A stretch of DNA of 64,000 bases from assembly GCA_028284155.1 (NCBI GenBank), contig JANQSF010000069.1:1-64000 (forward strand), read 5' to 3'. The notes under the pieces were generated by a model. The model made no database searches. It had not been told where the DNA came from and was given only the letters and a program-made list of their open reading frames with translations. Shown here in pieces: positions 7,168 through 18,411 of this stretch. This DNA comes from Phycisphaeraceae bacterium (GTDB lineage Bacteria > Planctomycetota > Phycisphaerae > Phycisphaerales > Phycisphaeraceae). Every line of letters begins with the position of its first letter. Within the stretch, counting starts at the first letter, position 1. The position numbers and the translations under genes were made by a program.

Positions 7168-8023
7168 TGTTCGACACCATCGCAGTATCGAGCTCTTCGG
7201 ACCGGTAGGTCAAGACGCCTTGCGCCGCACCCGCGTTGCCGTCGTGGGCATAGGCGGCCTCGGGACTCACGTCGTTCAGCAACTCGCCTTCTTGGGGGTC
7301 GGTACCATTGCCGCCATGGACCACGAGGATCTCGACGAGACAAACCTTAACAGATATGTCGGGGCGCGACACGACGACCCCATCCCAGGGACACCGAAGG
7401 TCGATATCGCTGAACGCACCGTTCGTGGAATCGACGAAGGCATCACGGTAGTCAAGATTCGGGAGCCGCTCGTCAGTGAAAGGGCGTTTTCGGCTGTCAA
7501 GGCCAGCGATTGGGCATTCGGTTGCGTGGATACCGACGGCCCACGATTCATTCTGAACGAACTCTGCGCGGCGTATGGCATTAAGTACGTTGACCTCGCC
7601 ACCGACGTGGAGCCCGGCCCACCGCTCAAATACGGTGGCCGGGTCTTCGTCTCCGACAACGGCGACGGATGCCTGTCCTGTCTCCAGATGTTGGACATGA
7701 AACAAGTCAACTGGTATCTGGCTGGCGAAGGACAGCGGGAAGACCTAGCAAACATCTACGGAGTGTCGCGCGACCTCCTCGGCCGGTCCGGACCTTCGGT
7801 CGTGTCTATCAATGGTGTCGTCGCGTCTCTTGCGGTAACCGAGTTCATGGTCGGCTGCACTGGTCTGCGTTCGCCGCGACGGCACATGGTTTATGATGCG
7901 ACTGATAGCAAGGTGCGCATCAGCTTGGACCAGCCCGTTGAGGGCTGTTGGTATTGCAAGGTGATGCGCGGCACTGGGGTTAATGCAGATGTGGAACGAT
8001 ACTTGGCCACGAACGCATCGTGA
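7160..8023 (+). CDS. ThiF/MoeB-type E1-like activating enzyme
   Basis: 287 residues. The adenylation domain shows the Rossmann nucleotide loop GIGGLG (30-35), the DETNLNRY segment with the conserved Asn and Arg, and FGCVDTDGPRF. Two CxxC pairs (C171/C174 and C263/C266) form the zinc-binding pattern usual in ThiF/MoeB/HesA proteins. A Ser-rich SINGVVASLAVTEF helix follows the region where thioester-forming E1s carry their catalytic residue. It should adenylate the C-terminal Gly of the Ubl at 6004. The GTG start at 7160 is fixed by the 8-bp overlap with the JAB gene. It is the last gene of the operon; tRNA-derived and repeat sequence follows. Confidence 0.88.
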   Translation: MSDVRHHRSIELFGPVGQDALRRTRVAVVGIGGLGTHVVQQLAFLGVGTIAAMDHEDLDETNLNRYVGARHDDPIPGTPKVDIAERTVRGIDEGITVVKIREPLVSERAFSAVKASDWAFGCVDTDGPRFILNELCAAYGIKYVDLATDVEPGPPLKYGGRVFVSDNGDGCLSCLQMLDMKQVNWYLAGEGQREDLANIYGVSRDLLGRSGPSVVSINGVVASLAVTEFMVGCTGLRSPRRHMVYDATDSKVRISLDQPVEGCWYCKVMRGTGVNADVERYLATNAS

Positions 8024-8036
8024 CTTCGAATCATTA

Positions 8037-8100
8037 CACTACATAATCGGTCGATTCTGCACTACATAGGTCGATTTGTCATTCCGGCCATTTTGTAGTG
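8037..8100. repeat. Short direct and inverted repeats beside tRNA fragment
   Basis: CACTACATAATCGGTCGATT (8037-8056) recurs as CACTACATAGGTCGATT (8060-8076), differing by a 3-bp gap. TGTAGTG at 8094-8100 is an inverted copy of the first seven bases. Such clusters next to a tRNA 3' end resemble arm-type recombinase or excisionase sites, but no integrase gene is present in the window. Confidence 0.5.
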
Positions 8101-8137
8101 ATAAATCACAACTATCTTATTTTCAGAAATCTAGGAA

Positions 8138-8179
8138 AGCGGGCGAAGGGACTCGAACCCTCAACATTCAGCTTGGAAG
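8138..8179 (-). tRNA. tRNA-Gly(TCC) 3'-half fragment, probable attachment-site scar
   Basis: Read on the minus strand, this has an anticodon loop CTTCCAA, a T-arm GAGGGTTCGAGTCCCTT and the acceptor strand CGCCCGC plus a discriminator T. The 5' half (acceptor GCGGGCG and D-arm) is absent upstream. It is therefore not a functional tRNA. The break near the anticodon loop is typical of sites where tRNA-targeting integrases recombine. Confidence 0.7.
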
Positions 8180-8260
8180 AAACGTACAGCGCTCCGGCCA
8201 ATTCTGGCCGTAAGTTGTTACTTCACAGGCGATCATAGCCACGACATAGCGATTCGCAAA

Positions 8261-8290
8261 TTGTCGCATTCTGTCGCACGGTGTCGCGGT
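8261..8290. repeat. Three 10-bp phased repeats with TGTCGC core
   Basis: Three consecutive 10-nt units, TTGTCGCATT, CTGTCGCACG and GTGTCGCGGT, place the core TGTCGC exactly one helical turn apart. This looks like a cooperative protein-binding array upstream of the RNA-repair operon. No regulator can be assigned. Confidence 0.45.
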
Positions 8291-8464
8291 ATTCGCAGCC
8301 GTGAATTGGCAGCGTCTGTCACAGTTTCGACGCTTGCAGAATCGCCCCTGCGATCAATCAGCACATACGCATTGGCGACATGTCGCCCGACTCAATACCA
8401 CTGAATGAGGTGGGATCGCTCGGCCTCGTCACCTCGCCTTGGCAATTGACCTTTTGGCGGATTT

Positions 8465-8486
8465 TGACAGTTGCACACTGAGTGTG
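8465..8486 (+). promoter_or_regulatory. TTGACA element with adjoining inverted repeat, upstream of hen1
   Basis: TTGACA at 8465-8470 is followed closely by CACACTGAGTGTG (8474-8486), an inverted repeat with 6-bp arms around one base. No good -10 box lies at the standard spacing, so this is more likely an operator near the start of the Hen1 operon than a complete promoter. Confidence 0.3.
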
Positions 8487-8526
8487 GCGAGCGACAATAC
8501 CATTGCTATGGCCAAGGCCCGAACCG

Positions 8527-9939
8527 ATGCTGCTGACGATCACCAACAGCTCGCCCCAGGCGACCGATCTCGGTTACCTGCTTCACAAGCACCCCGACAA
8601 GGTGCAGGCTTTCAGTCTGTCCTACGGCAAAGCTCACGTTTTCTACCCCGAGTCCTCCTCTGACCGTTGCACGGCATGCCTGCTGCTCGACATTGATCCG
8701 GTGGGCCTTGTCCGCAATCGACGCGGTCCCTCCGGAGAAGGTCGAAGCCTGGACCAGTATGTCAACGACCGACCTTATGTCGCATCATCTTTCCTGAGCG
8801 TCGCTCTCGCCAAAGTCTACGGGTCGGCTCTGTCGGGTCGCTGCAACGACAAACCGCAACTGATCAGCACACCGCTTGATTTGACTGTCACGGTGGATGT
8901 TGTGCCTTGCCGCGGCGCGAACGATGACGGCCAGGTTATCCGCGAGCTATTCGAACCACTCGACTACACGGTCGAGACCGTCCATCACCCACTTGACGAG
9001 AAGTTCTTGCAGTGGGGTGAAGGGCCGTACTTCTCCGTCACGCTTCGAGCACGGAAGCCCCTGAGCGAGATGCTCACGCATCTGTATGTCCTGTTGCCCG
9101 TACTCGACAACGACAAGCACTACTGGGTCGATAAGGACGAGGTTGAGAAACTTCTCGCCCGCGGTGAGGGCTGGTTGCAAGGCCATCCGGCAAAGGAACT
9201 CATCACCAATCGGTACCTGCGGTACCAGCGTTCGCTGACCCGCGACGCCCTAGCTCGACTCACCACTGAGGAACAGGTGGACCCCGATGCAGACGCTGAA
9301 GCACATGACGAGCAGGAAGAAGCTATCGAAAGCCCATTGAGCTTGAACGACCAGCGCCATGCCGCGGTCGTGGCTGCTCTTAAGGCCAGCGGCGCCAAAC
9401 GTGTACTCGACTTGGGTTGCGCCCAAGGAAAGCTGCTTCGTCGACTCCTTGACGAGAGACAGTTTGAGCTGGTGGCTGGGATGGACGTGTCTCTGCGCGC
9501 TCTGGAACACGCCGAGCGTCGGCTTAAGCTGGACCGTCTGCCAGACCGCCAACGTCAACGCGTTCAGTTGCTTCACGGCTCACTGATGTATCGAGACCAG
9601 CGGCTTAATGGCTTCGATGCTGCGTGTCTGGTTGAAGTGATCGAACACCTCGACCCACCGCGTTTGGCCGCGATGGAGCGTGCAGTCTTCGAGTTCGCGA
9701 AGTCTCCGACGGTCGTCCTGACCACGCCAAACGTCGAGTACAACGTACGCTTCGAGACGCTGCCCGCAGGACAATACCGTCACCGGGACCACCGTTTCGA
9801 GTGGACACGCGAGCAGTTCCAGTCGTGGGCTACGGAGTTGGCGGAACGATTCGGGTACACCGTTCGTTTCCTTCCTGTCGGAGACAATGACGCCGAAGTC
9901 GGCAGCCCAACGCAGATGGGGGTTTTCGAGCATGCGTAA
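8527..9939 (+). CDS. hen1: Hen1 3'-terminal RNA ribose 2'-O-methyltransferase
   Basis: 470 residues, the usual length of bacterial Hen1. The N-terminal half matches the Hen1-specific domain: MLLTITNSS start, then DLGYLLHKHPDKVQ, RCTACLLLDIDPVGLVR and SLDQYVNDRPYVASSFLSVA. The C-terminal half is an SAM-dependent methyltransferase with VLDLGCAQGKLL and the metal-binding EVIEHLD plus the downstream HRDHRFEW histidines. Hen1 methylates the 2'-OH of the 3'-terminal nucleotide at the cleavage site before Pnkp seals the break, which blocks renewed cleavage by ribotoxins. ATG at 8527 is chosen because it begins the conserved MLLTI strand. The next gene overlaps its stop by 8 bp. Confidence 0.92.
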   Translation: MLLTITNSSPQATDLGYLLHKHPDKVQAFSLSYGKAHVFYPESSSDRCTACLLLDIDPVGLVRNRRGPSGEGRSLDQYVNDRPYVASSFLSVALAKVYGSALSGRCNDKPQLISTPLDLTVTVDVVPCRGANDDGQVIRELFEPLDYTVETVHHPLDEKFLQWGEGPYFSVTLRARKPLSEMLTHLYVLLPVLDNDKHYWVDKDEVEKLLARGEGWLQGHPAKELITNRYLRYQRSLTRDALARLTTEEQVDPDADAEAHDEQEEAIESPLSLNDQRHAAVVAALKASGAKRVLDLGCAQGKLLRRLLDERQFELVAGMDVSLRALEHAERRLKLDRLPDRQRQRVQLLHGSLMYRDQRLNGFDAACLVEVIEHLDPPRLAAMERAVFEFAKSPTVVLTTPNVEYNVRFETLPAGQYRHRDHRFEWTREQFQSWATELAERFGYTVRFLPVGDNDAEVGSPTQMGVFEHA

Positions 9940-11374
9940 GCCGAATGTCCCTACTGCTGCCGTCGCTCCGTATTCACTTCCCCTCGACGAACGTGAGTTC
10001 GAACAGGCTCTGTCCGTTGGCCACGGCCGTGCATGGTTGCACCTATCCCAACATGGCATTGGAACCGTCCGGGGAATCGTCAAAAACGCCCTCCTGCACA
10101 GTTTGGCCTACGACACGCAGTGCGAAGGTGATCGGAGCCAATGGATGATCGGGATGATCGATGAGGCCGGCGCTGGTCGCGACCTCTATCCTGAGTTCAT
10201 CGAGCATGCACATGACGCACCCGTAGATGATCACGACTTCTGGCACCTTTCTCAACGAGGCACACTCCTCGGAACTTTGGCATCGAGGGGCCTGGACGGG
10301 GCGAGAGCCGCTCTCGACCGCTTGTTTCACGAAGGCCGAAAACAGCACCCGAACGAACTCCTTGGCGCGCTCGACATCATCAAAGTCAATGGCGACAAAG
10401 GCCTTCTACAAGTGTGTGCAGTGTTGGGCAACGAGGCACACGAGAACAGTGATGACACAGTCGACGACTGGTTCCTGAACGACTTCGATGAAGATCGAGG
10501 GGACAGTGCTGCCGTCAAGGTGCTTCAAGCAGAGCGCCACCATAGTCAGGGTATCGACCGGTACCTATCGACTAGAGAAACCATGCTGGCGGCGAGACAA
10601 GCCGACAAGCAGGCCAAGACGCGGACGTCGCAACTCGACGAGACAACGCCCAAGATATCAGACTACGCCAAAGTACCACGAGCATTCCACAATCTCCCAG
10701 TAGAGAAGGTCATTGATTGGGTTCGCGATGCTCCCCAAATAGAGGGTCAGTTTCCCAGCAGCGTTGAAGGTCGCGGTTGGCTGCGGCGTTGGGGGATTAA
10801 AGCGAACGAGACGGCCTTGGAGGAGGTCTTGAGCACTCTCGACAAGACTGACTCTGCAATCGAACAACGCCGCTACTTGAGCATTTTTTCTGGGCGTCCG
10901 ATGCCCCAAGTCTCCGATCGGGTTGTTCAGCTTGCTGAATCCGGCGATGAACGAGTTCGATCTCGTGCATACGCGGCTCTAAAGAACGTATCAGACCCAC
11001 GGGTCCGAGCCGTAGGTTTGAGATCGCTCATCCCGGAACGAATCAAGAACGGGGCACTTGAACTGCTGCAGTCGAGTTACGCCCTCGGCGACCATGAGGC
11101 TATTGAAGCCGCGCTTATTGTGCCCGACGATGCGGATGATCTTCACTCTGTGGTTTTTGATCTTGCGGATGTGTGTGCCACGGCTAAACACCCAGAATGT
11201 CTTGCATTGATGCTGTTCGTCTACGAGTACTCCCCTTGTGGCAATTGCCGTGGAAAAGTGGTTGCAACCATGGCTGAACTTGGCGTCGCGCCAACTTGGC
11301 TTTCCGACGAAGGTCGATTTGACGCGATGGAAGACATTCGCGGTAGGTTCGGAGGGCCAAGACTTGAGGATTGA
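9932..11374 (+). CDS. Unrecognised HEAT-like protein between hen1 and pnkp
   Basis: 480 residues, mostly helical. The N-terminal half has no motif I recognise. It contains FEQALSVGHGRAWLHLSQHG and a DFWHLSQRGTLLGTLA segment with a repeated W-HLSQ theme. From about residue 330 there are HEAT-like helical pairs (DERVRSRAYAALKNVSDPRV, RVRAVGLRSLI), ending in a CGNCRGKVV segment. ATG at 9932 overlaps the hen1 stop by 8 bp, and its own stop lies inside the pnkp start region (11-bp overlap). It is therefore translated as part of one RNA-repair operon. HEAT-repeat proteins usually bind other proteins or nucleic acid. A role as adaptor, damaged-RNA sensor or regulator is inference. Confidence 0.75.
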   Translation: MRKPNVPTAAVAPYSLPLDEREFEQALSVGHGRAWLHLSQHGIGTVRGIVKNALLHSLAYDTQCEGDRSQWMIGMIDEAGAGRDLYPEFIEHAHDAPVDDHDFWHLSQRGTLLGTLASRGLDGARAALDRLFHEGRKQHPNELLGALDIIKVNGDKGLLQVCAVLGNEAHENSDDTVDDWFLNDFDEDRGDSAAVKVLQAERHHSQGIDRYLSTRETMLAARQADKQAKTRTSQLDETTPKISDYAKVPRAFHNLPVEKVIDWVRDAPQIEGQFPSSVEGRGWLRRWGIKANETALEEVLSTLDKTDSAIEQRRYLSIFSGRPMPQVSDRVVQLAESGDERVRSRAYAALKNVSDPRVRAVGLRSLIPERIKNGALELLQSSYALGDHEAIEAALIVPDDADDLHSVVFDLADVCATAKHPECLALMLFVYEYSPCGNCRGKVVATMAELGVAPTWLSDEGRFDAMEDIRGRFGGPRLED

Positions 11375-13937
11375 CCTTCCTGAACTCTCACTTGTCACAC
11401 TCATCGGAGCTACCGGCTCTGGGAAGTCATCCTTTGCGCGCAACCACTTTGGTCCGTTCGAAGTAGTGTCTTCTGACTTTTGCCGCGGTCTGGTCTCAAA
11501 CGACGAGAACGACCAGACGGTCTCCAATGAAGCGTTCGACCTGCTGCATTCGATCATCCATCAACGTCTCCGACTCGGCCGCCTGACGGTTGTGGATGCG
11601 ACTAACGTTCGCCCTGAAGACCGCAAACATCTGGTACGCATTGCCCGCGAACACCACGTGTTGCCGGTGGCCGTCGTCTTCGACATTCCCGAGAAGGTTT
11701 GTCACGAGCGCAACGCCAGCCGTCCGGACCGCGACTTTGGACCACACGTCATCCGCAATCAGCGGTCGGCCATGAAACGGAATCTGCGAGGTCTCAAACG
11801 GGAAGGCTTCCGACACATCTTTACGTTTAAGAGTGTCGAGGAGGTCGACGCGGCAACGACCGAGCGTCAGCCGCTCTGGAACAACAAGAAGGCGGTCACG
11901 GGTCCGTTCGACATCATCGGTGACGTACACGGTTGCTGCTCGGAACTGATCACCCTGCTCAACGCGTTGGGCTATCAGGTCACTGAGACAGATCGTGAAG
12001 ACGGGTTGAAGTTTCAGGTGACTCCACCCGATGGGCGAACAGCGGTTTTCGTCGGCGACCTCGTCGACCGCGGCCCTCGGGTCGCCGACACGTTGAAGCT
12101 GGTGATGGCGATGCACGCCGATGGCGTCGCCCACTGTGTTCCCGGCAATCATGATGTGAAGCTGCTCCGGAAGCTCCGAGGAAAGAACGTTCAGATCACC
12201 CATGGTCTCGACGTGACGCTTGCAGAACTGGAGAAGGAAGACGCGGACTTTAATGACGCTGTCGTACAGTTCATCGACGGTTTGGTGAGCCACTACGTTT
12301 ACGACAATGGTCGGCTTGTGGTTGCTCACGCCGGCCTGATACAAAGCATGCAAGGCCGTGGCTCCGGCAAGGTCCGGGAGTTCTGCCTCTACGGTGAGAC
12401 GACCGGTGAGACCGACGAGTTCGGGCTGCCGATTCGGTACAACTGGGCTGCTGAGTACAGGGGCTCGGCGATGGTCGTCTACGGGCACACGCCAGTGCCG
12501 GAACCCGAATGGCTCAACCACACCATCAACATCGACACCGGTTGTGTGTTTGGAGGCAAGTTGACCGCCCTTCGCTACCCCGAGAAGGAGTTGGTTAGCG
12601 TTGATGCCGAGGCGATGTACGCCGAACCGGCGAAGCCGTTCCTTGACGAAGACCAAAAACACGGCGTGCTCAGTGCCCAACACGCGGTCGATGATGTGCT
12701 TGATCTCACTGACGTCTTTGGCAAGCGGATCATCGACACCAGGCTTCAGAAGGCGGTGACGGTCCGGGAAGAAAACGCTGCTGCCGCTCTCGAAGTCATG
12801 AGCCGGTTCGCGGCCAACCCGAAATGGCTAATCTATCTGCCACCGACCATGTCACCCTGTGAAACGAGCGAGCGTCCGGAGTTTCTCGAACACCCCGAAG
12901 AAGCATTTACCTACTACCGTAATCAAGGCGTGCCGCGTGTCATTTGCGAGCAAAAGCATATGGGGTCGCGAGCCGTGGCAATTGTCTGCCGAAATGAGGA
13001 TGTCGCTCGCGAGCGGTTCGGCGTCGTCGGCGAGGGCATCGGCATTGTGTACACGCGTACAGGTCGCCGGTTCTTCGATGACGTCGAGTTGGAGCAAGCC
13101 TTGCTTCACGAAGTGCGGGCGGCTGCCGACACCTGCCGACTGTGGGATGACCTTGGTACGGATTGGATGTGTCTCGATTGCGAACTCATGCCGTGGTCGG
13201 CCAAGGCTCAAGAGTTATTGCGCCAGCAATACGCTGCTGTCGGGTCAGCGGGGCGCCATGCGCTCGCGGCGAGCGTCGCTGCATTGACTACCGCCCAGGC
13301 TCGCATGGGCGAGCCGGCCGCAATGTTGTTGGCCGACATGCAAACTCGCCAAGACAGCTTGAAGGCCTACACCACCGCCTATCAGCACTATTGCTGGCCC
13401 GTCGAATCCTTGAGTGACTTGAGGTTGGCCCCTTTTCACCTGCTTGCCACTGAAAAACAGGCGCATGTCGACAAGGACCATCGTTGGCATATGGCGTGGT
13501 GCCAGAAACTCGCCGAACACGGGAGCGACGTCGTCATGGGTACGGCCTGCCACGAAGTCGATGTCACCGATGAGTCAAGCCTCGCCGCGGGTATGGAGTG
13601 GTGGCTCACACTGACCGGTGAAGGTGGCGAAGGCATGGTCGTGAAGCCCTTGGACTTCATCGTCCGCGGTAAGCGGGGACTGTCGCAACCAGCGGTCAAG
13701 TGCCGCGGCCGCGAATACCTGCGCATCATCTACGGTCCCGAATACACCACGCCGGTACACCTTGACCGGCTCCGCGCACGAGGGCTTGGCCGCAAACGCG
13801 GGCTGGCGCTTCGCGAGTTTGCTCTTGGCATTGAAGCACTGGAGCGGTTCGTTCGACGGGAGCCCTTGCGGCGCGTGCACGAGTGCGTGTTTGGCGTCCT
13901 CGCCTTGGAGAGTGAGCCTGTTGACCCGAGGTTGTGA
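11364..13937 (+). CDS. pnkp: Polynucleotide kinase-phosphatase-ligase Pnkp (RNA repair)
   Basis: 857 residues with all three modules of bacterial Pnkp. The 5'-kinase has P-loop GATGSGKS at 15-22 and SSDFCRG just after. The metallophosphoesterase has IGDVHG near 185-190, VGDLVDRGP, PGNHD, AHAG and GHTP, and acts as 2',3'-phosphatase. The C-terminal ligase domain carries the nucleophile motif EQKHMGSR. Numbering matches the known clostridial enzyme closely. The start is TTG at 11364: GGAGGG at 11351-11356 lies 7 nt upstream and the protein then begins at the conserved strand before the P-loop. It heals and seals RNA ends, with full ligation known to need Hen1, the first gene of the operon. Confidence 0.95.
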   Translation: MRIDLPELSLVTLIGATGSGKSSFARNHFGPFEVVSSDFCRGLVSNDENDQTVSNEAFDLLHSIIHQRLRLGRLTVVDATNVRPEDRKHLVRIAREHHVLPVAVVFDIPEKVCHERNASRPDRDFGPHVIRNQRSAMKRNLRGLKREGFRHIFTFKSVEEVDAATTERQPLWNNKKAVTGPFDIIGDVHGCCSELITLLNALGYQVTETDREDGLKFQVTPPDGRTAVFVGDLVDRGPRVADTLKLVMAMHADGVAHCVPGNHDVKLLRKLRGKNVQITHGLDVTLAELEKEDADFNDAVVQFIDGLVSHYVYDNGRLVVAHAGLIQSMQGRGSGKVREFCLYGETTGETDEFGLPIRYNWAAEYRGSAMVVYGHTPVPEPEWLNHTINIDTGCVFGGKLTALRYPEKELVSVDAEAMYAEPAKPFLDEDQKHGVLSAQHAVDDVLDLTDVFGKRIIDTRLQKAVTVREENAAAALEVMSRFAANPKWLIYLPPTMSPCETSERPEFLEHPEEAFTYYRNQGVPRVICEQKHMGSRAVAIVCRNEDVARERFGVVGEGIGIVYTRTGRRFFDDVELEQALLHEVRAAADTCRLWDDLGTDWMCLDCELMPWSAKAQELLRQQYAAVGSAGRHALAASVAALTTAQARMGEPAAMLLADMQTRQDSLKAYTTAYQHYCWPVESLSDLRLAPFHLLATEKQAHVDKDHRWHMAWCQKLAEHGSDVVMGTACHEVDVTDESSLAAGMEWWLTLTGEGGEGMVVKPLDFIVRGKRGLSQPAVKCRGREYLRIIYGPEYTTPVHLDRLRARGLGRKRGLALREFALGIEALERFVRREPLRRVHECVFGVLALESEPVDPRL

Positions 13938-14007
13938 CCACCACGATCCTCAGTGCGATTCGAGTAAGATCATGTATGTCACGCGAAACGACCTGTCCGC
14001 CACCAAT

Positions 14008-14079
14008 TCCGGAGTAGATCAATGGTAGATCACTCGGCTCTGGACCGAGAGGGTGCTGGTTCGAATCCAGCCTCCGGAT
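14008..14079 (+). tRNA. tRNA-Gln(CTG)
   Basis: A complete 72-nt cloverleaf. The acceptor is TCCGGAG/CTCCGGA (7 perfect pairs), the D-stem GATC/GATC, the anticodon stem CTCGG/CCGAG with loop CTCTGGA (anticodon CTG), and the T-arm GCTGG/CCAGC with loop TTCGAAT. The first pair T-A is typical of tRNA-Gln. CCA is not encoded. It lies 70 bp after pnkp on the same strand, directly before and overlapping the next open frame. Confidence 0.93.
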
Positions 14080-16439
14080 TTCATCCGGCCAACCCCAGTT
14101 ATGCCGTATTCCAGCTTGCGCGCGCGCTAACGACGGCCCATGAGCATGACGACCCTGACACCCGAGAACGAGCAAAGGAGAAAGCCACCAAGTGGCAGAC
14201 TGTCTTTGAGAAGATGCTCAACGGTTCCTTGGAGGTTGGCACAAGGACACCTGTGCCCGACACTCCAGAGTGGGTCACGCTGGAGGTTGTCACGGGCGGC
14301 TTCGCCACTGGAGCATTCTTAGCAGGAGGCCCGCTTACCGATCATGAGCGCGCCCTGACTGAACGTCTGGCGCTGCGCGGCAATGACATTCGGCTGCAAT
14401 TGAACCGGTACTTTCTGACAGACCAAGGTCTGTCAGAGCTACAAGACGCGCTTCGATCCGGTCGGTTCGAGATTGACGTTCCTGAAGAAGGTGCGTTGTT
14501 GGTTGTCGCCTGGCTATTAATCAACGGCCACGCACAGAGCGCTCGCGACCTGCTAGACCGAATTGCACCATTCTTTACCACGTTGCGATTCTTTCCGCTG
14601 CTTGTTGACCGTCCCCGTCGTTTCGGATCGCGCGTATTCATTCAAGATGTCAAGACGACCATCCGTAAGCTTGATGCCATCCCTCCCAACCAAGCCATTC
14701 TGACCCAGCGCGAAGCACTTCAGGTTTGGACGCCACTCTATGATGAATTGGTCGCGCTCCTCCTAGAAACGGTGGAGGGTGACCCGCCCGCGTTGCGGCG
14801 CAATCATGCAGCTGGTGGCTCAGAGGACCAGCACGTATCTGGAGGCTGGCCGTGCCAGCAGTACTCAAATGGTTGGCCTGAGAGAGCGCAACCTCTGCTG
14901 CAGCGTATCAGAGCAAGCCAAAGCGAACACAAACTCTCCGCCAAGCCCTCGCATCGCAAATCGAACTTCGCCCAGTTGATCCCACTATTCGAGAAGTGTG
15001 TCACCGATCCTGCATCGCTGAGCGGCCGCGAAGTTGGCCGTATCCGGCTCTCGTTGGCTCGGTACGTCGCCAAGCGAGGTCTACCTAACGGCGCGGAGTG
15101 CAGACAACGCAGAGAGAAGCAACACGAGCAGGCCCAAACGCCCGTTTATAGCGACATTGCGAAGGCGGTCGTGCCTCGACTTCGCCACTTCCCAGGTGAT
15201 CAGGGATTGGAACAAGTCGACCCCGTCCTTGCACCGCTGAACGCCGATGAAGCCCGAGTGTGTGGGCTCCGTTCAGATTCTCCCCTTCCCGAACCAATTC
15301 GACGCCGGATTGAGCGGTGCTTGTGTGAAACGGTCGAGATACTCGTGGAGCGCGGCCTCATCACCTCGGGCGACATGCTCGCCGAGGTGCTCCCCCAGAT
15401 GACGTCGGGCTTGCGCGCCGCGGGCATTGCTGACCCGTTGTTGCGTCAACTCTATGCTGCGATCTATAGGGCTTTTCGCCGTCGACGTTCTTTGCTGCTT
15501 CTCAATCTGCAGAGCCAGGTCAAGATTGAAGAGCTTCCTTGGGTCCAAGCGGTGGAATCCTTCCGCCGAGAAGACATCTCAACACGCGACTTGACACGAC
15601 AAACGCTTGAAGAAGTGTCCTGCCTCGCCCTGAGTTCGTTTCCCCACGCCATTCTTCCCAACAAACTCCTTCAGGAGATACGGGCGCTCGCAAAAGGTAC
15701 CGCGATCGATATACCCGTCGTTGACGAGCTTGCCGCGGATATTTTTATGGGCGAGTTCTCGCCGAAGTTCCTTGCCGCCGCCAAGATTGCAGCGGACCTG
15801 TTGGCTGACTCGTTGTATGCGCGCTATTACGGCGTCGACTATGCCGAGATTCAATCACTGCCCGATGCGCCCAAATCGACCACCCGACGCTGGCCGTTTA
15901 GCCTCGCGCGTTCTACAACGCCTGAGTTTGCTGGACTGTGCATGTCGCGTGCCGGCGTAAAACAGTTGAGCTGGGACCCAGCCACGAACGGCATGGTCAT
16001 CGAACAGCAGCAGATCCTCACGACGCAGAACCTTGCGCCGCTATTCGTTCGGCTAAACCTTACTGATTTGCTGGAGCCCCAGCTACCTGAGATGGCAAGA
16101 GTTTGTTTCGATTGGATTTGTCGCAGACTGCAAGTGAAAGCAACCAAGTGGCACGCACGCCTAATCATGGTCAAAAACACAGCCTATGCGTGGCGGCAGA
16201 TGGTGTTCTATTTGTCATTGCTGACTGAGTCGCAACAAGCCGCGTTCCTGTCCTGGGCAGATGAGCAACTGGCTTCTCAACGGCCTGCGTTTCGGGACAC
16301 ATTTCAACCAGCACTTGACGGATTGCGATCTGCCTTACAAGGCGACGGCTCCAAGCCAGGTGGAAAACTCCGTCGGGGGCGACAGTTTCTTGGTTGGTCG
16401 AAGAAGAAGCATTGGCTCTTGGAAGGTCGAAGTCAGTAG
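14022..16439 (+). CDS. Large conserved-hypothetical protein; start unresolved, overlaps tRNA-Gln
   Basis: 805 codons from the first ATG, which lies in the D-loop of tRNA-Gln; the first 19 codons are simply translated tRNA (the giveaway is DREGAGSNPASG). After the tRNA, no ATG, GTG or TTG appears in frame until ATG at 14214. Yet the protein already looks conserved before that: YAVFQLARAL, and just after it VGTRTPVPDTPEWVTLEVV and GGFATGAFLAGGPL. From memory these resemble an uncharacterised family found in actinobacteria and planctomycetes. No catalytic motif, signal peptide or membrane segment is evident. The gene was either truncated when the tRNA was placed upstream, or starts inside the tRNA or at a rare start codon. 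Position suggests a link with the RNA-repair operon. The function is unknown. Confidence 0.7.
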   Translation: MVDHSALDREGAGSNPASGFHPANPSYAVFQLARALTTAHEHDDPDTRERAKEKATKWQTVFEKMLNGSLEVGTRTPVPDTPEWVTLEVVTGGFATGAFLAGGPLTDHERALTERLALRGNDIRLQLNRYFLTDQGLSELQDALRSGRFEIDVPEEGALLVVAWLLINGHAQSARDLLDRIAPFFTTLRFFPLLVDRPRRFGSRVFIQDVKTTIRKLDAIPPNQAILTQREALQVWTPLYDELVALLLETVEGDPPALRRNHAAGGSEDQHVSGGWPCQQYSNGWPERAQPLLQRIRASQSEHKLSAKPSHRKSNFAQLIPLFEKCVTDPASLSGREVGRIRLSLARYVAKRGLPNGAECRQRREKQHEQAQTPVYSDIAKAVVPRLRHFPGDQGLEQVDPVLAPLNADEARVCGLRSDSPLPEPIRRRIERCLCETVEILVERGLITSGDMLAEVLPQMTSGLRAAGIADPLLRQLYAAIYRAFRRRRSLLLLNLQSQVKIEELPWVQAVESFRREDISTRDLTRQTLEEVSCLALSSFPHAILPNKLLQEIRALAKGTAIDIPVVDELAADIFMGEFSPKFLAAAKIAADLLADSLYARYYGVDYAEIQSLPDAPKSTTRRWPFSLARSTTPEFAGLCMSRAGVKQLSWDPATNGMVIEQQQILTTQNLAPLFVRLNLTDLLEPQLPEMARVCFDWICRRLQVKATKWHARLIMVKNTAYAWRQMVFYLSLLTESQQAAFLSWADEQLASQRPAFRDTFQPALDGLRSALQGDGSKPGGKLRRGRQFLGWSKKKHWLLEGRSQ

Positions 16440-16969
16440 GCTTCTCTGTTCCTGACGCGGACAGTGTTCGAACTCACGGCCCTAGTCCACGTCCGGCAAT
16501 TCCATCACGGCGTTGACCGTAGAGTCGCTTCGCCCTCATCGTTTCGCCCAACGGACGTGTTTCACCACGTGGTGAAACACGCCACTTCAGTGAAACCAAC
16601 TCTGAGATCCCGGGACAGTGGCATTCGCCTGCCCCCACCAGACGGCGAGAATCGTACGTCAAGCCGTCACTTCAAATGACTTGCAGTGGCATCCGGCGGG
16701 TTGAGAAAAAACCGCCGGGGGCCATCACGGGAATCTGGGGGCTGATGGTGAAGGCCTCGCAGAGGATTGGGGATTGCCGATGCGAATGCCTGTGTGAGCC
16801 CCTCCGATTCGGGACCGATCCGGCAGATGGGGGTCTGGGGCCGGCATCTATATAAGTGGGTTGGGTGATGTGTGCCGTTGTCGTCCGCCCTCGTCGGGGC
16901 CATGGGCCTGCGGCCTCATCGGGTGAGCCCCGACGACGACGGCCGAAAACGGCAGGTAACCCGTCCGTG
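16440..16969. other. Gene-free stretch with a long palindrome
   Basis: 530 bp between two convergent units. Apart from the 26-bp palindrome near its start I see only short frames with no protein-like composition. It is probably the edge of the accessory region. Confidence 0.5.
16556..16581. repeat. 26-bp perfect palindrome
   Basis: Both 13-nt halves are exactly complementary; the left half is CGTGTTTCACCAC. There is no loop, so as DNA it fits a dimeric-protein operator or recombinase site better than a terminator, and no T-run follows. It lies 117 bp after the large hypothetical gene. Confidence 0.6.
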
Positions 16970-17410
16970 TCATGGTTCCTCGGTGAACCAGGACGAGAGA
17001 TTGATCACAGCGCTACGCATGGCATCGGTCGATTCGACGACCTTACGGCTCAGTACTTCGACCAAATCCTCTTGATTGGGCTGGCCCAGTGCCAACCGGT
17101 AGAGCAACCGCTGCTCTTTCATCCAAGACAGCCAGTTTGCCTGCTCGCTGGTGGGGAGATCGAATGCGTAACGATGCACTCCACCTCCCTTGCATACCCA
17201 CCATGGCGCCAAGCCCGATTCATCGGTCAGTCGTTCACCGGCCAGTCGCTCGATGGATGACCAAGGGCTTTCGTCATCGGCACGCGCCAATGCCGCGTCG
17301 GCGCTGAGGTCATCGGCCACCGCCCGTCGGATGGATAGTCCGCCGAATCGCTGAATGCGTCCCTCACGCTGTTCCAGATCGACCGGGTTCTGTCCCTCGG
17401 AAATGTCCGA
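16970..17410 (-). pseudogene. C-terminal remnant of an SNF2-type helicase
   Basis: 146 codons are open downstream of an in-frame TAA at 17411-17413. The remnant begins SDISEGQNPVDLEQREGRIQ, which is helicase motif VI (QREGRIQR) of the SNF2-like helicases seen in DISARM-type and related defence loci. It continues with PWWVCKGG, LPTSEQANWLSWMKEQRLLY and RLALGQPNQEDL, the typical C-terminal tail of that family. The rest of a protein of about 1000 residues is missing: the upstream side ends within 30 bp at the neighbouring coiled-coil gene. GTG at 17320 would give a 116-residue product but would lack motif VI, so I call it a remnant. Confidence 0.75.
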
Positions 17411-17439
17411 TTACGCGCCACAGAGGTGTGCGACGCTCT

Positions 17440-18411
17440 TCAGTCAAACACGGGCTGCAACAAGAACTCGTGCTGGTAGTAAGCGATGTTGTTCACTTCC
17501 AGCTCGCCCGACTTGGTCCGTTCGGATGGTCTGCTGCCGCTGGCGACGTCCTGGACCAAGGCGGTGAGGTCGACTTCGTTTGTGTGGATGGTCTCGCCCG
17601 GGTAGCTTCCCTTTAAGACAATCCGGAAAGTCGCCTTGGGTTCGATTTCGGCCAGGGGGATATCGAGGTGACTGCCGGGAAACGTATCTGCCCCGGACCG
17701 GGCGATGGGCATGTCGGGGGCGTTGAAGGCCTTCCACGCTTTGCCATTGATGAAGACGGTGGCTTCGTAATGGGGTTTCCTGTCGGCCCATCGACCGCGT
17801 CCTTTCTGGTCCGAGGTGTGGACACGAAGAAAGGCGATCCGTGTCCAGGTCACTCGTACGGCGACAGGCTTCGGCGCGTCTAGGTTGCTCTGGAGCACGT
17901 CGGTAGCCGTTTTCAGTCCGACCTGTACGGAGGCTGACTCCATGAAGCTCCGGGCGGCGCTCCTGGCCAGTGTGTCCGTCGGCGATTTGTCTAGCAACGT
18001 AAACATCCGTTTGATCTGTGCGTCCCGTTCGAGCAGCTGTGCTTGCGCGGTGTTCAGCTTGTCAGCGGTCGCCTTGGCGGCCTTGCGGGATTCATTAGTC
18101 GTCTGCGCGGCGAGCCTCTGCTCCTCCAAGGCATGTCGCTTTTCGTTGAGCGCAACCTCGCTCCTTTGCAAAGCCAGCGATTCCTGCGTTCGGGACGCAT
18201 TGAGCTTGTCACTCTCCCGTCCGGCGTAGTACTCACCGACACCGACCATTCCTGCCACCAAGAGCACGATGGCTGTGAACCAAGGGACGCCAGTCTCGGT
18301 GAGGGAGCGCCACGTGCTGGTCAACCGCTTGTTCTCGTGCTCGAGTTTTCGGTTTTCGAGTTCCTTCTGTCGAATCTCGAGTTCGTGTAGTTTTTTCGGG
18401 GTGTCCGGCAT
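17440..18411 (-). CDS. Membrane-anchored coiled-coil protein, unknown
   Basis: 323 residues. A charged N-terminal coiled coil (KLHELEIRQKELENRKLEHE) is followed by one membrane segment (WFTAIVLLVAGMVGVGEYY, about residues 45-65). A long Ala-, Glu- and Gln-rich coiled coil runs to about 165. The C-terminal domain is beta-rich and contains VRVTWTRIAFLRVH and EATVFINGKAWKAF. ATG at 18411 is chosen because the frame upstream is Arg- and Pro-rich and not protein-like. The C-terminal part is probably outside the cytoplasm. No family recognised. It ends next to the helicase remnant, so this is where the older chromosomal sequence seems to resume. Confidence 0.7.
   Translation of the reverse strand: MPDTPKKLHELEIRQKELENRKLEHENKRLTSTWRSLTETGVPWFTAIVLLVAGMVGVGEYYAGRESDKLNASRTQESLALQRSEVALNEKRHALEEQRLAAQTTNESRKAAKATADKLNTAQAQLLERDAQIKRMFTLLDKSPTDTLARSAARSFMESASVQVGLKTATDVLQSNLDAPKPVAVRVTWTRIAFLRVHTSDQKGRGRWADRKPHYEATVFINGKAWKAFNAPDMPIARSGADTFPGSHLDIPLAEIEPKATFRIVLKGSYPGETIHTNEVDLTALVQDVASGSRPSERTKSGELEVNNIAYYQHEFLLQPVFD

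Follow-up and report, generated by a model that had tools for sequence, protein, structure and literature searches.

The gene that reads as tRNA-Gln(CTG) in the window, by which is meant the whole 64,000-nucleotide stretch of Phycisphaeraceae DNA analysed here, is, judging from related loci, more aptly assigned to a separate family of tRNA-like RNAs, which are encoded together with a dedicated partner protein. As comparison of these loci shows, the tRNA-shaped RNA and the all-helical protein make up a two-part cassette that has been kept together over great distances and moved between phyla, and it is very probable that the cassette is a single functional unit. Its placement before one protein, its swappable anticodon and its occasional repair neighbours suggest that the RNA is a tRNA look-alike directed against tRNA-cutting enzymes. 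The RNA is apparently widespread in bacteria and undescribed; a literature search that mostly fell short of subscription papers and preprints found no description of the RNA-protein module.

The RNA gene and the start of the protein gene in the window

The RNA gene (14008–14079, + strand) was recognized by ARAGORN and by the tRNA model of Rfam (RF00005, 69.8 bits, E = 5.6e-14, 10 kb searched), which was the only Rfam model above threshold in positions 8000–18000, the Y RNA models giving no match there. As the preliminary description had stated, it follows the end of pnkp by 70 bp on the same strand. The pnkp gene (11367–13937, +; TIGR04075, 1425 bits, and PF16542), whose product combines 5′-kinase, phosphatase and ligase, and hen1 (8482–9939, +; TIGR04074, 700.9 bits, and PF12623), which encodes a 3′-terminal ribose 2′-O-methyltransferase, are members of the bacterial RNA-repair cassette. 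An ORF that lies between the two and overlaps both (9887–11374, +) is HEAT-repeat-like by a weak match (PF13646, E = 0.001, below the curated cut-off); strong relatives of it are absent near other copies of the module.

The window copy has the shape of a decoding tRNA, a cloverleaf with standard helices and a 7-nt anticodon loop, CTCTGGA (14038–14044, +), in which column entropies and a census of loops place the variable segment 34–37, here CTGG, at 14040–14043 (+). No CCA is encoded. Position 73 is T (U in the RNA) and the pairs 2-71 and 3-70 are C-G, features that we take to be unlike those of E. coli tRNA-Gln. Because separate housekeeping tRNA-Gln genes of ordinary appearance stand elsewhere in the source genome (CTG at C34:3348 and TTG at C61:22439), the window gene is an extra copy. 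The same genome contains, beside its housekeeping set, a dense array of about 30 tRNAs (L051, G000:C107:287823-298880), in which most anticodons occur once each and several class II members look degenerate. It also contains two adjacent tRNAs (L018, G000:C83:65312 and 65439) with the serine anticodons GCT and ACT, which are unlikely to be normal tRNA-Ser because the long variable arm is missing from their bodies.

The partner-protein ORF as readable here (14022–16439, +) would encode 805 residues if begun at an ATG within the D-loop of the tRNA-like RNA. This ATG, at 14022, is the sole in-frame start before the conserved region and the next Met is codon 65, in agreement with the earlier remark that no usable start lies outside the tRNA until that codon. 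The conserved part of the protein (14088–16436, +), from ANPSYAVFQLARAL... through the C-terminus, was delimited by tblastn and by alignment of relatives. Homology starts about 8 nt past the tRNA, at query residue 3–4 of 785, so the sequence right behind the tRNA is conserved coding sequence, as had been supposed, and the relatives do not begin at the equivalent of codon 65. A GGAG in the acceptor stem (14011–14014, +), 7 nt upstream of the ATG, is a candidate Shine-Dalgarno sequence for the window genome only, where there is no other start. That the gene starts inside the tRNA, one of the possibilities raised earlier, may hold for this genome but does not extend to the family: at 81 of the 83 loci with a tRNA-like RNA, an in-frame start precedes the conserved N-terminus in the stretch that separates it from the RNA, and only the window and one further locus (L155) have none. 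Because the spacer between RNA and gene measures 9 nt in the window instead of the roughly 50–90 nt of its relatives, the native start of the window gene was probably lost along with the spacer. The lack of a start codon is thus genuine in the sequence but confined to the window genome, and an assembly error may lie behind it.

Linkage of the RNA to the partner gene

The partner protein has about 785 residues, and tblastn identified relatives with 43–57% identity in about a dozen of 392 same-phylum genomes and with 32–40% identity on plasmids of Streptomyces, Embleya and Curtobacterium. A profile scan of GTDB 220, with one genome per species, yielded 445 loci that encode relatives, and the locus analyses use the best 80 of these, namely the most similar ones. 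Among the 80, ARAGORN detected a same-strand tRNA a short distance upstream at 66, and at two others (L152 and L153) the tRNA-like RNA was seen by eye and by the covariance model. With one locus at a contig edge (L156) left out, the RNA lies close upstream on the same strand at 68 of 79 testable loci, in nine phyla. The tRNA is therefore not unlinked in relatives, and it is an ancestral partner of the gene. The other 11 of these 79 loci have no RNA and are clustered on the protein tree (3 changes, compared with 10.4 in shuffles), so that the protein can do without it; the RNA-less relatives show that the protein either has some function without the RNA or has adopted another RNA.

The covariance model of the tRNA-like RNA, R1, scores the window copy at 89.2 bits and the next-best tRNA of the source genome at 67.6 bits. 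In the 392 same-phylum genomes, seven matches reach at least 81 bits and all of them lie beside the partner gene, as does the tRNA-like RNA of one further genome (G072, 79.5 bits), and the closest ordinary tRNAs are three tRNA-Asn(GTT) at 80, 80 and 77 bits. Matches at E ≤ 1e-15 in 12 further genomes occur only beside the gene, save for one ordinary tRNA-Asn. Because the ordinary tRNAs nearest to R1 are tRNA-Asn(GTT), descent of the tRNA-like RNA from tRNA-Asn is suggested, although 67 of 77 copies have C or U, not G, as the discriminator.

The cassette is patchily present, in 7 of 199 Pseudomonas, 14 of 392 same-phylum and 12 of 343 same-family genomes, with some copies on plasmids and others chromosomal. 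A search for an empty site with the joined flanks of one Pseudomonas locus found no genome with both flanks together. Two module loci (L111 and L112, in genomes G391 and G235) are situated about 1–8 kb from large tRNA arrays.

Structure of the RNA and variation of its anticodon loop

The conserved body of the RNA reads TCCGGGGTAGTTCAGCGGTAGAAC.CTCGGCT[34-37]ACCGAG.GGGCGCTGGTTCGAATCCAGCCCCCGGA. In an alignment of 48 sequences, pairing holds in 99.7% of the cells and two-sided changes occur at 17 of the 21 pairs; pairing and compensatory changes far exceed those in shuffles and slid controls. By column entropies, C32-U33 is invariant and 34–37 is the most variable unpaired run (1.6–2.1 bits). 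A decoding tRNA would be expected to keep its anticodon among orthologues, whereas 25 triplets are found among 78 nonredundant copies at the same locus (CTT 12, TCG 8, CTG 7, TCC 5, TGA 4, CCG 4 and others, including TCA, which as UCA would read a stop codon). The loop has 7 nt in 69 of the 78 copies, 6 nt in eight and 5 nt in one. Nine tandem sets, with two or three copies before one gene, were found by pattern, and the loops differ within all nine.

The loop CTTA of Pseudomonas is unchanged over 81–98% protein identity while identity in the 80 nt upstream drops to about 50–75%, which argues that the loop is not free to drift. Where loops do switch, two to four adjacent bases change together in a nearly constant RNA body (CTTA/CTGG, GATA/TCAA and CCGG-T/TGAG-A). 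Wholly neutral drift of the loop is disfavoured by both the conserved CTTA and these multi-base switches, and the constancy in Pseudomonas implies that rapid arms-race turnover is not general. We infer from these patterns that the loop encodes a specificity which is generally maintained but now and then replaced by another.

Order of transcription

In Pseudomonas, a conserved footprint of the form TTCACA-17-GACAAT, recognized by eye in otherwise divergent sequence, ends about 11 nt before the tRNA-like RNA; an automated count of TAnnnT gave no sharp peak across all phyla. With this promoter footprint before the RNA and the gene on the same strand, the favoured arrangement is a single transcript that would carry the RNA first and the gene after it, which was the last of the three explanations offered in the preliminary description.

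The partner protein

Searches of Pfam (including TROVE), NCBIfam, PADLOC, PHROGs and PDB sequences gave no match to the partner protein, PADLOC thus offering no model of a defence-system protein, and no recognized nuclease, kinase or other catalytic domain was detected by family or structure searches. A confident AlphaFold2 model is almost wholly helical (pLDDT 91.4, pTM 0.87), and the C-terminal half modelled alone reaches a pLDDT of 87.0. Foldseek returned no match at E ≤ 1e-3 for either the whole model or the C-terminal half. With VIA-align, the whole model reached at best Z 7.6 (48 residues) and the C-terminal half Z 4.9 (115 residues of a karyopherin); these matches reflect no more than a common arrangement of helical repeats and exclude no family. 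Relatives are absent from viral contigs, searched with the single protein and with the profile, from phage records and from PHROGs, so that, as far as those collections show, this is not a phage gene.

RNA-repair neighbours

RNA-repair clusters of three types occur next to the cassette: Hen1-Pnkp, Hen1-RlaP-Thg1-Pnkp and RtcR-rsr-rtcB-rtcA. It follows hen1-pnkp in the window and at L116, and at L121 it is divergent to a cluster of hen1, DUF5677, two rlaP, a kinase, thg1 and pnkp; hen1 and pnkp are thus both present beside it at these three loci. At L142 (the same locus as L240), it is flanked by rtcA-DUF6847 and by a second rtcB; rsr-rtcB-rtcA lies upstream of it and rtcR is divergent, and the order is the same at L241 and L242, where DUF6847 was undetected. 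Between L240 and L241 the flanking DNA is 86–88% identical on both sides, whereas the cassette proteins share only 51% identity and the loops differ (TGTT and GGT), which indicates an exchange of the cassette at this position or its rapid divergence there. The two rtcB genes that flank the cassette in these Undibacterium-type operons are different, with about 53% identity.

Repair neighbours were seen in four independent lineages, compared with roughly 0.1–0.2 expected by a rough hand estimate that assumes each repair system to be present in 10–50% of genomes, an interval of 20 kb in a 6-Mb genome and about 70 independent loci. Most copies of the cassette stand alone among ordinary genes with no RNA-repair neighbour, and PADLOC revealed no consistent defence island around them. 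The earlier idea that the tRNA is part of the repair locus thus finds support in kind, since RNA-repair genes adjoin the cassette in several lineages, but does not describe most copies. Isolated matches of 46–60 residues to the Pnkp C-terminus were found at L083:7831-8013 and L084:6197-6334, in genomes with no full Pnkp match. At L082:10805-10878 (genome G019), an ordinary-looking tRNA-Ala(TGC) follows a partial pnkp at a distance of about 0.5 kb, on the opposite strand.

Possible function of the cassette

As a tentative reading, to which we assign a probability of roughly 0.4, the RNA would be a bait or specificity element for anticodon damage that is bound by the protein. Transcription would begin with the RNA, which would undergo tRNA-like trimming and then be bound by its partner; instead of decoding, it would display the loop of a particular anticodon. 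If an enzyme that cuts anticodons, whether colicin-like, phage-triggered or a self enzyme, attacks that kind of anticodon, the bait could compete with the real tRNAs, or the bound protein could sense cleavage of the bait, or both, and the sensing protein would then act by recruiting repair or by arresting growth. The loop would be swapped on a change of threat, extra copies would broaden the range, and linked Hen1-Pnkp or RtcB-RtcA-Rsr would mend the cut RNAs. The cassette might then be a widespread immune or damage-sensing ribonucleoprotein that has a tRNA mimic of its own and derives its specificity from the mimic's exchangeable anticodon loop. Conceivably, the bait mirrors the attacked tRNA and is coupled to RNA repair, with some genomes keeping arrays of baits. 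In favour of the bait are the linkage, the covarying structure, the anticodon-centred change, the differing tandem loops, the repair neighbours and the patchiness; against it are the 11 of 79 RNA-less loci, the majority of loci without repair genes, the constancy of the loop within Pseudomonas, and the lack of a consistent defence island and of a recognized catalytic domain.

The linkage and the patchiness could also be explained if the protein were a growth-inhibiting, tRNA-directed toxin that is titrated by the upstream tRNA-like RNA in the manner of type III toxin-antitoxin systems. The RNA gene does lie directly upstream of the protein gene, with tandem copies and a patchy horizontal distribution, and nearby repair genes could reverse the damage. 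This explanation is nevertheless unlikely: a titrating antitoxin should have near-identical repeats, whereas the tandem copies differ exactly in the loop; a nuclease-like fold was not found in the protein; and 11 of the 79 testable relatives among the best 80 of 445 have lost the RNA, a loss that a toxin gene could not tolerate.

Somewhat less likely still, the tRNA-like RNA could be a regulatory leader, the 5′ end of the mRNA, whose recognition by RNase P/Z or by the encoded protein itself would set the amount of protein made. The Pseudomonas promoter footprint just before the RNA, the short spacer and the location of the window's only start within the tRNA-like RNA are consistent with such a role, and on Streptomyces plasmids an ATG stands 2 nt past the end of the tRNA-like RNA, so that a leaderless mRNA would result after processing. 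A leader would leave the varied anticodons and the differing tandem loops unexplained, and reverse complements of the loop show no enrichment in the spacer or at the beginning of the coding sequence (59 observed against 54.5 expected).

If instead the RNA were aminoacylated according to its anticodon, the protein could be a tRNA-dependent enzyme that transfers amino acids to a substrate. The full cloverleaf, the T-loop TTC (56 of 77 copies) and the encoded CCA (35 of 77) would suit a charged adaptor, and the common anticodons CUU, UCG, CUG and UCC are those of anticodon-reading synthetases. Such a role is rather improbable, since the C or U discriminator is unsuited to most of those synthetases, and loops of 5–6 nt, the stop-reading UCA and serine anticodons on a body without a long arm do not fit it. 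An ordinary extra tRNA-Gln that serves translation and stands beside the gene by chance, as its passing ARAGORN and Rfam might suggest, is very improbable in view of the same linked gene in nine phyla with a changing anticodon, the absence of the RNA elsewhere in those genomes and the housekeeping tRNA-Gln(CTG) and (TTG). An insertion that severed the start of an unrelated gene, akin to one of the options in the preliminary description and suggested by the missing start codon between tRNA and gene, is scarcely credible when nearly all relatives share the position of the tRNA-like RNA and the lost spacer accounts for the missing start.

If the interpretation of the cassette is correct, it comprises a non-coding RNA that is derived from a tRNA but uses its anticodon for changeable recognition instead of decoding, together with a dedicated partner protein; the pair is present in at least nine phyla and has been annotated so far as stray tRNAs and a hypothetical protein. 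Should the RNA indeed be a bait, it would represent a new principle in tRNA conflicts and offer a direct test of what RNA-repair operons repair. Under any mechanism, the strict pairing makes both partners immediately testable.

Comparison with known systems

Phage tRNAs evade anticodon nucleases by changes in the anticodon loop (van den Berg et al., eLife 2023, PMC10264068), and they share with the present RNA the anticodon loop as a possible arena of conflict with tRNA-cutting enzymes. Unlike them, the module is chromosomal, or in some cases on plasmids, is tied to one protein and did not turn up in searches of viral contigs and phage records. Type III toxin-antitoxin systems (ToxIN and TenpIN) likewise place a structured and sometimes tandem RNA upstream of one gene and are mobile and patchy, whereas the module has a tRNA fold, differing loops and a large helical protein. 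The ToxN fold is not among the matches of that protein, for which a check of the ToxN/AbiQ fold gave no sequence match and no Foldseek match at E ≤ 1e-3, although a missing fold match excludes nothing.

The Hen1-Pnkp cassette is immediately upstream of the module in the window and at L116. As it is known, that cassette contains no tRNA-like gene, most Pnkp loci of relatives (L076–L081) have none, and the tRNA-like module usually occurs without Hen1-Pnkp.

The nearest known system, in spirit, is the YrlA/Rsr pair of the rtc operon. In the rsr-yrlBA-rtcBA operon, YrlA, with its tRNA-like domain, and Rsr, of the Ro60 kind, likewise combine the gene for a tRNA-mimic RNA in or beside a repair operon with a dedicated binding protein, a binding that is presumed here for the partner protein. 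It has been suggested that YrlA might competitively inhibit an anticodon nuclease (Hughes et al., PMC7790460). The partner protein has no sequence relationship to Rsr, which is itself encoded alongside it in the Undibacterium-type operons (L142); the present RNA differs from YrlA in forming a plain and complete cloverleaf, the anticodon of which is freely exchanged.
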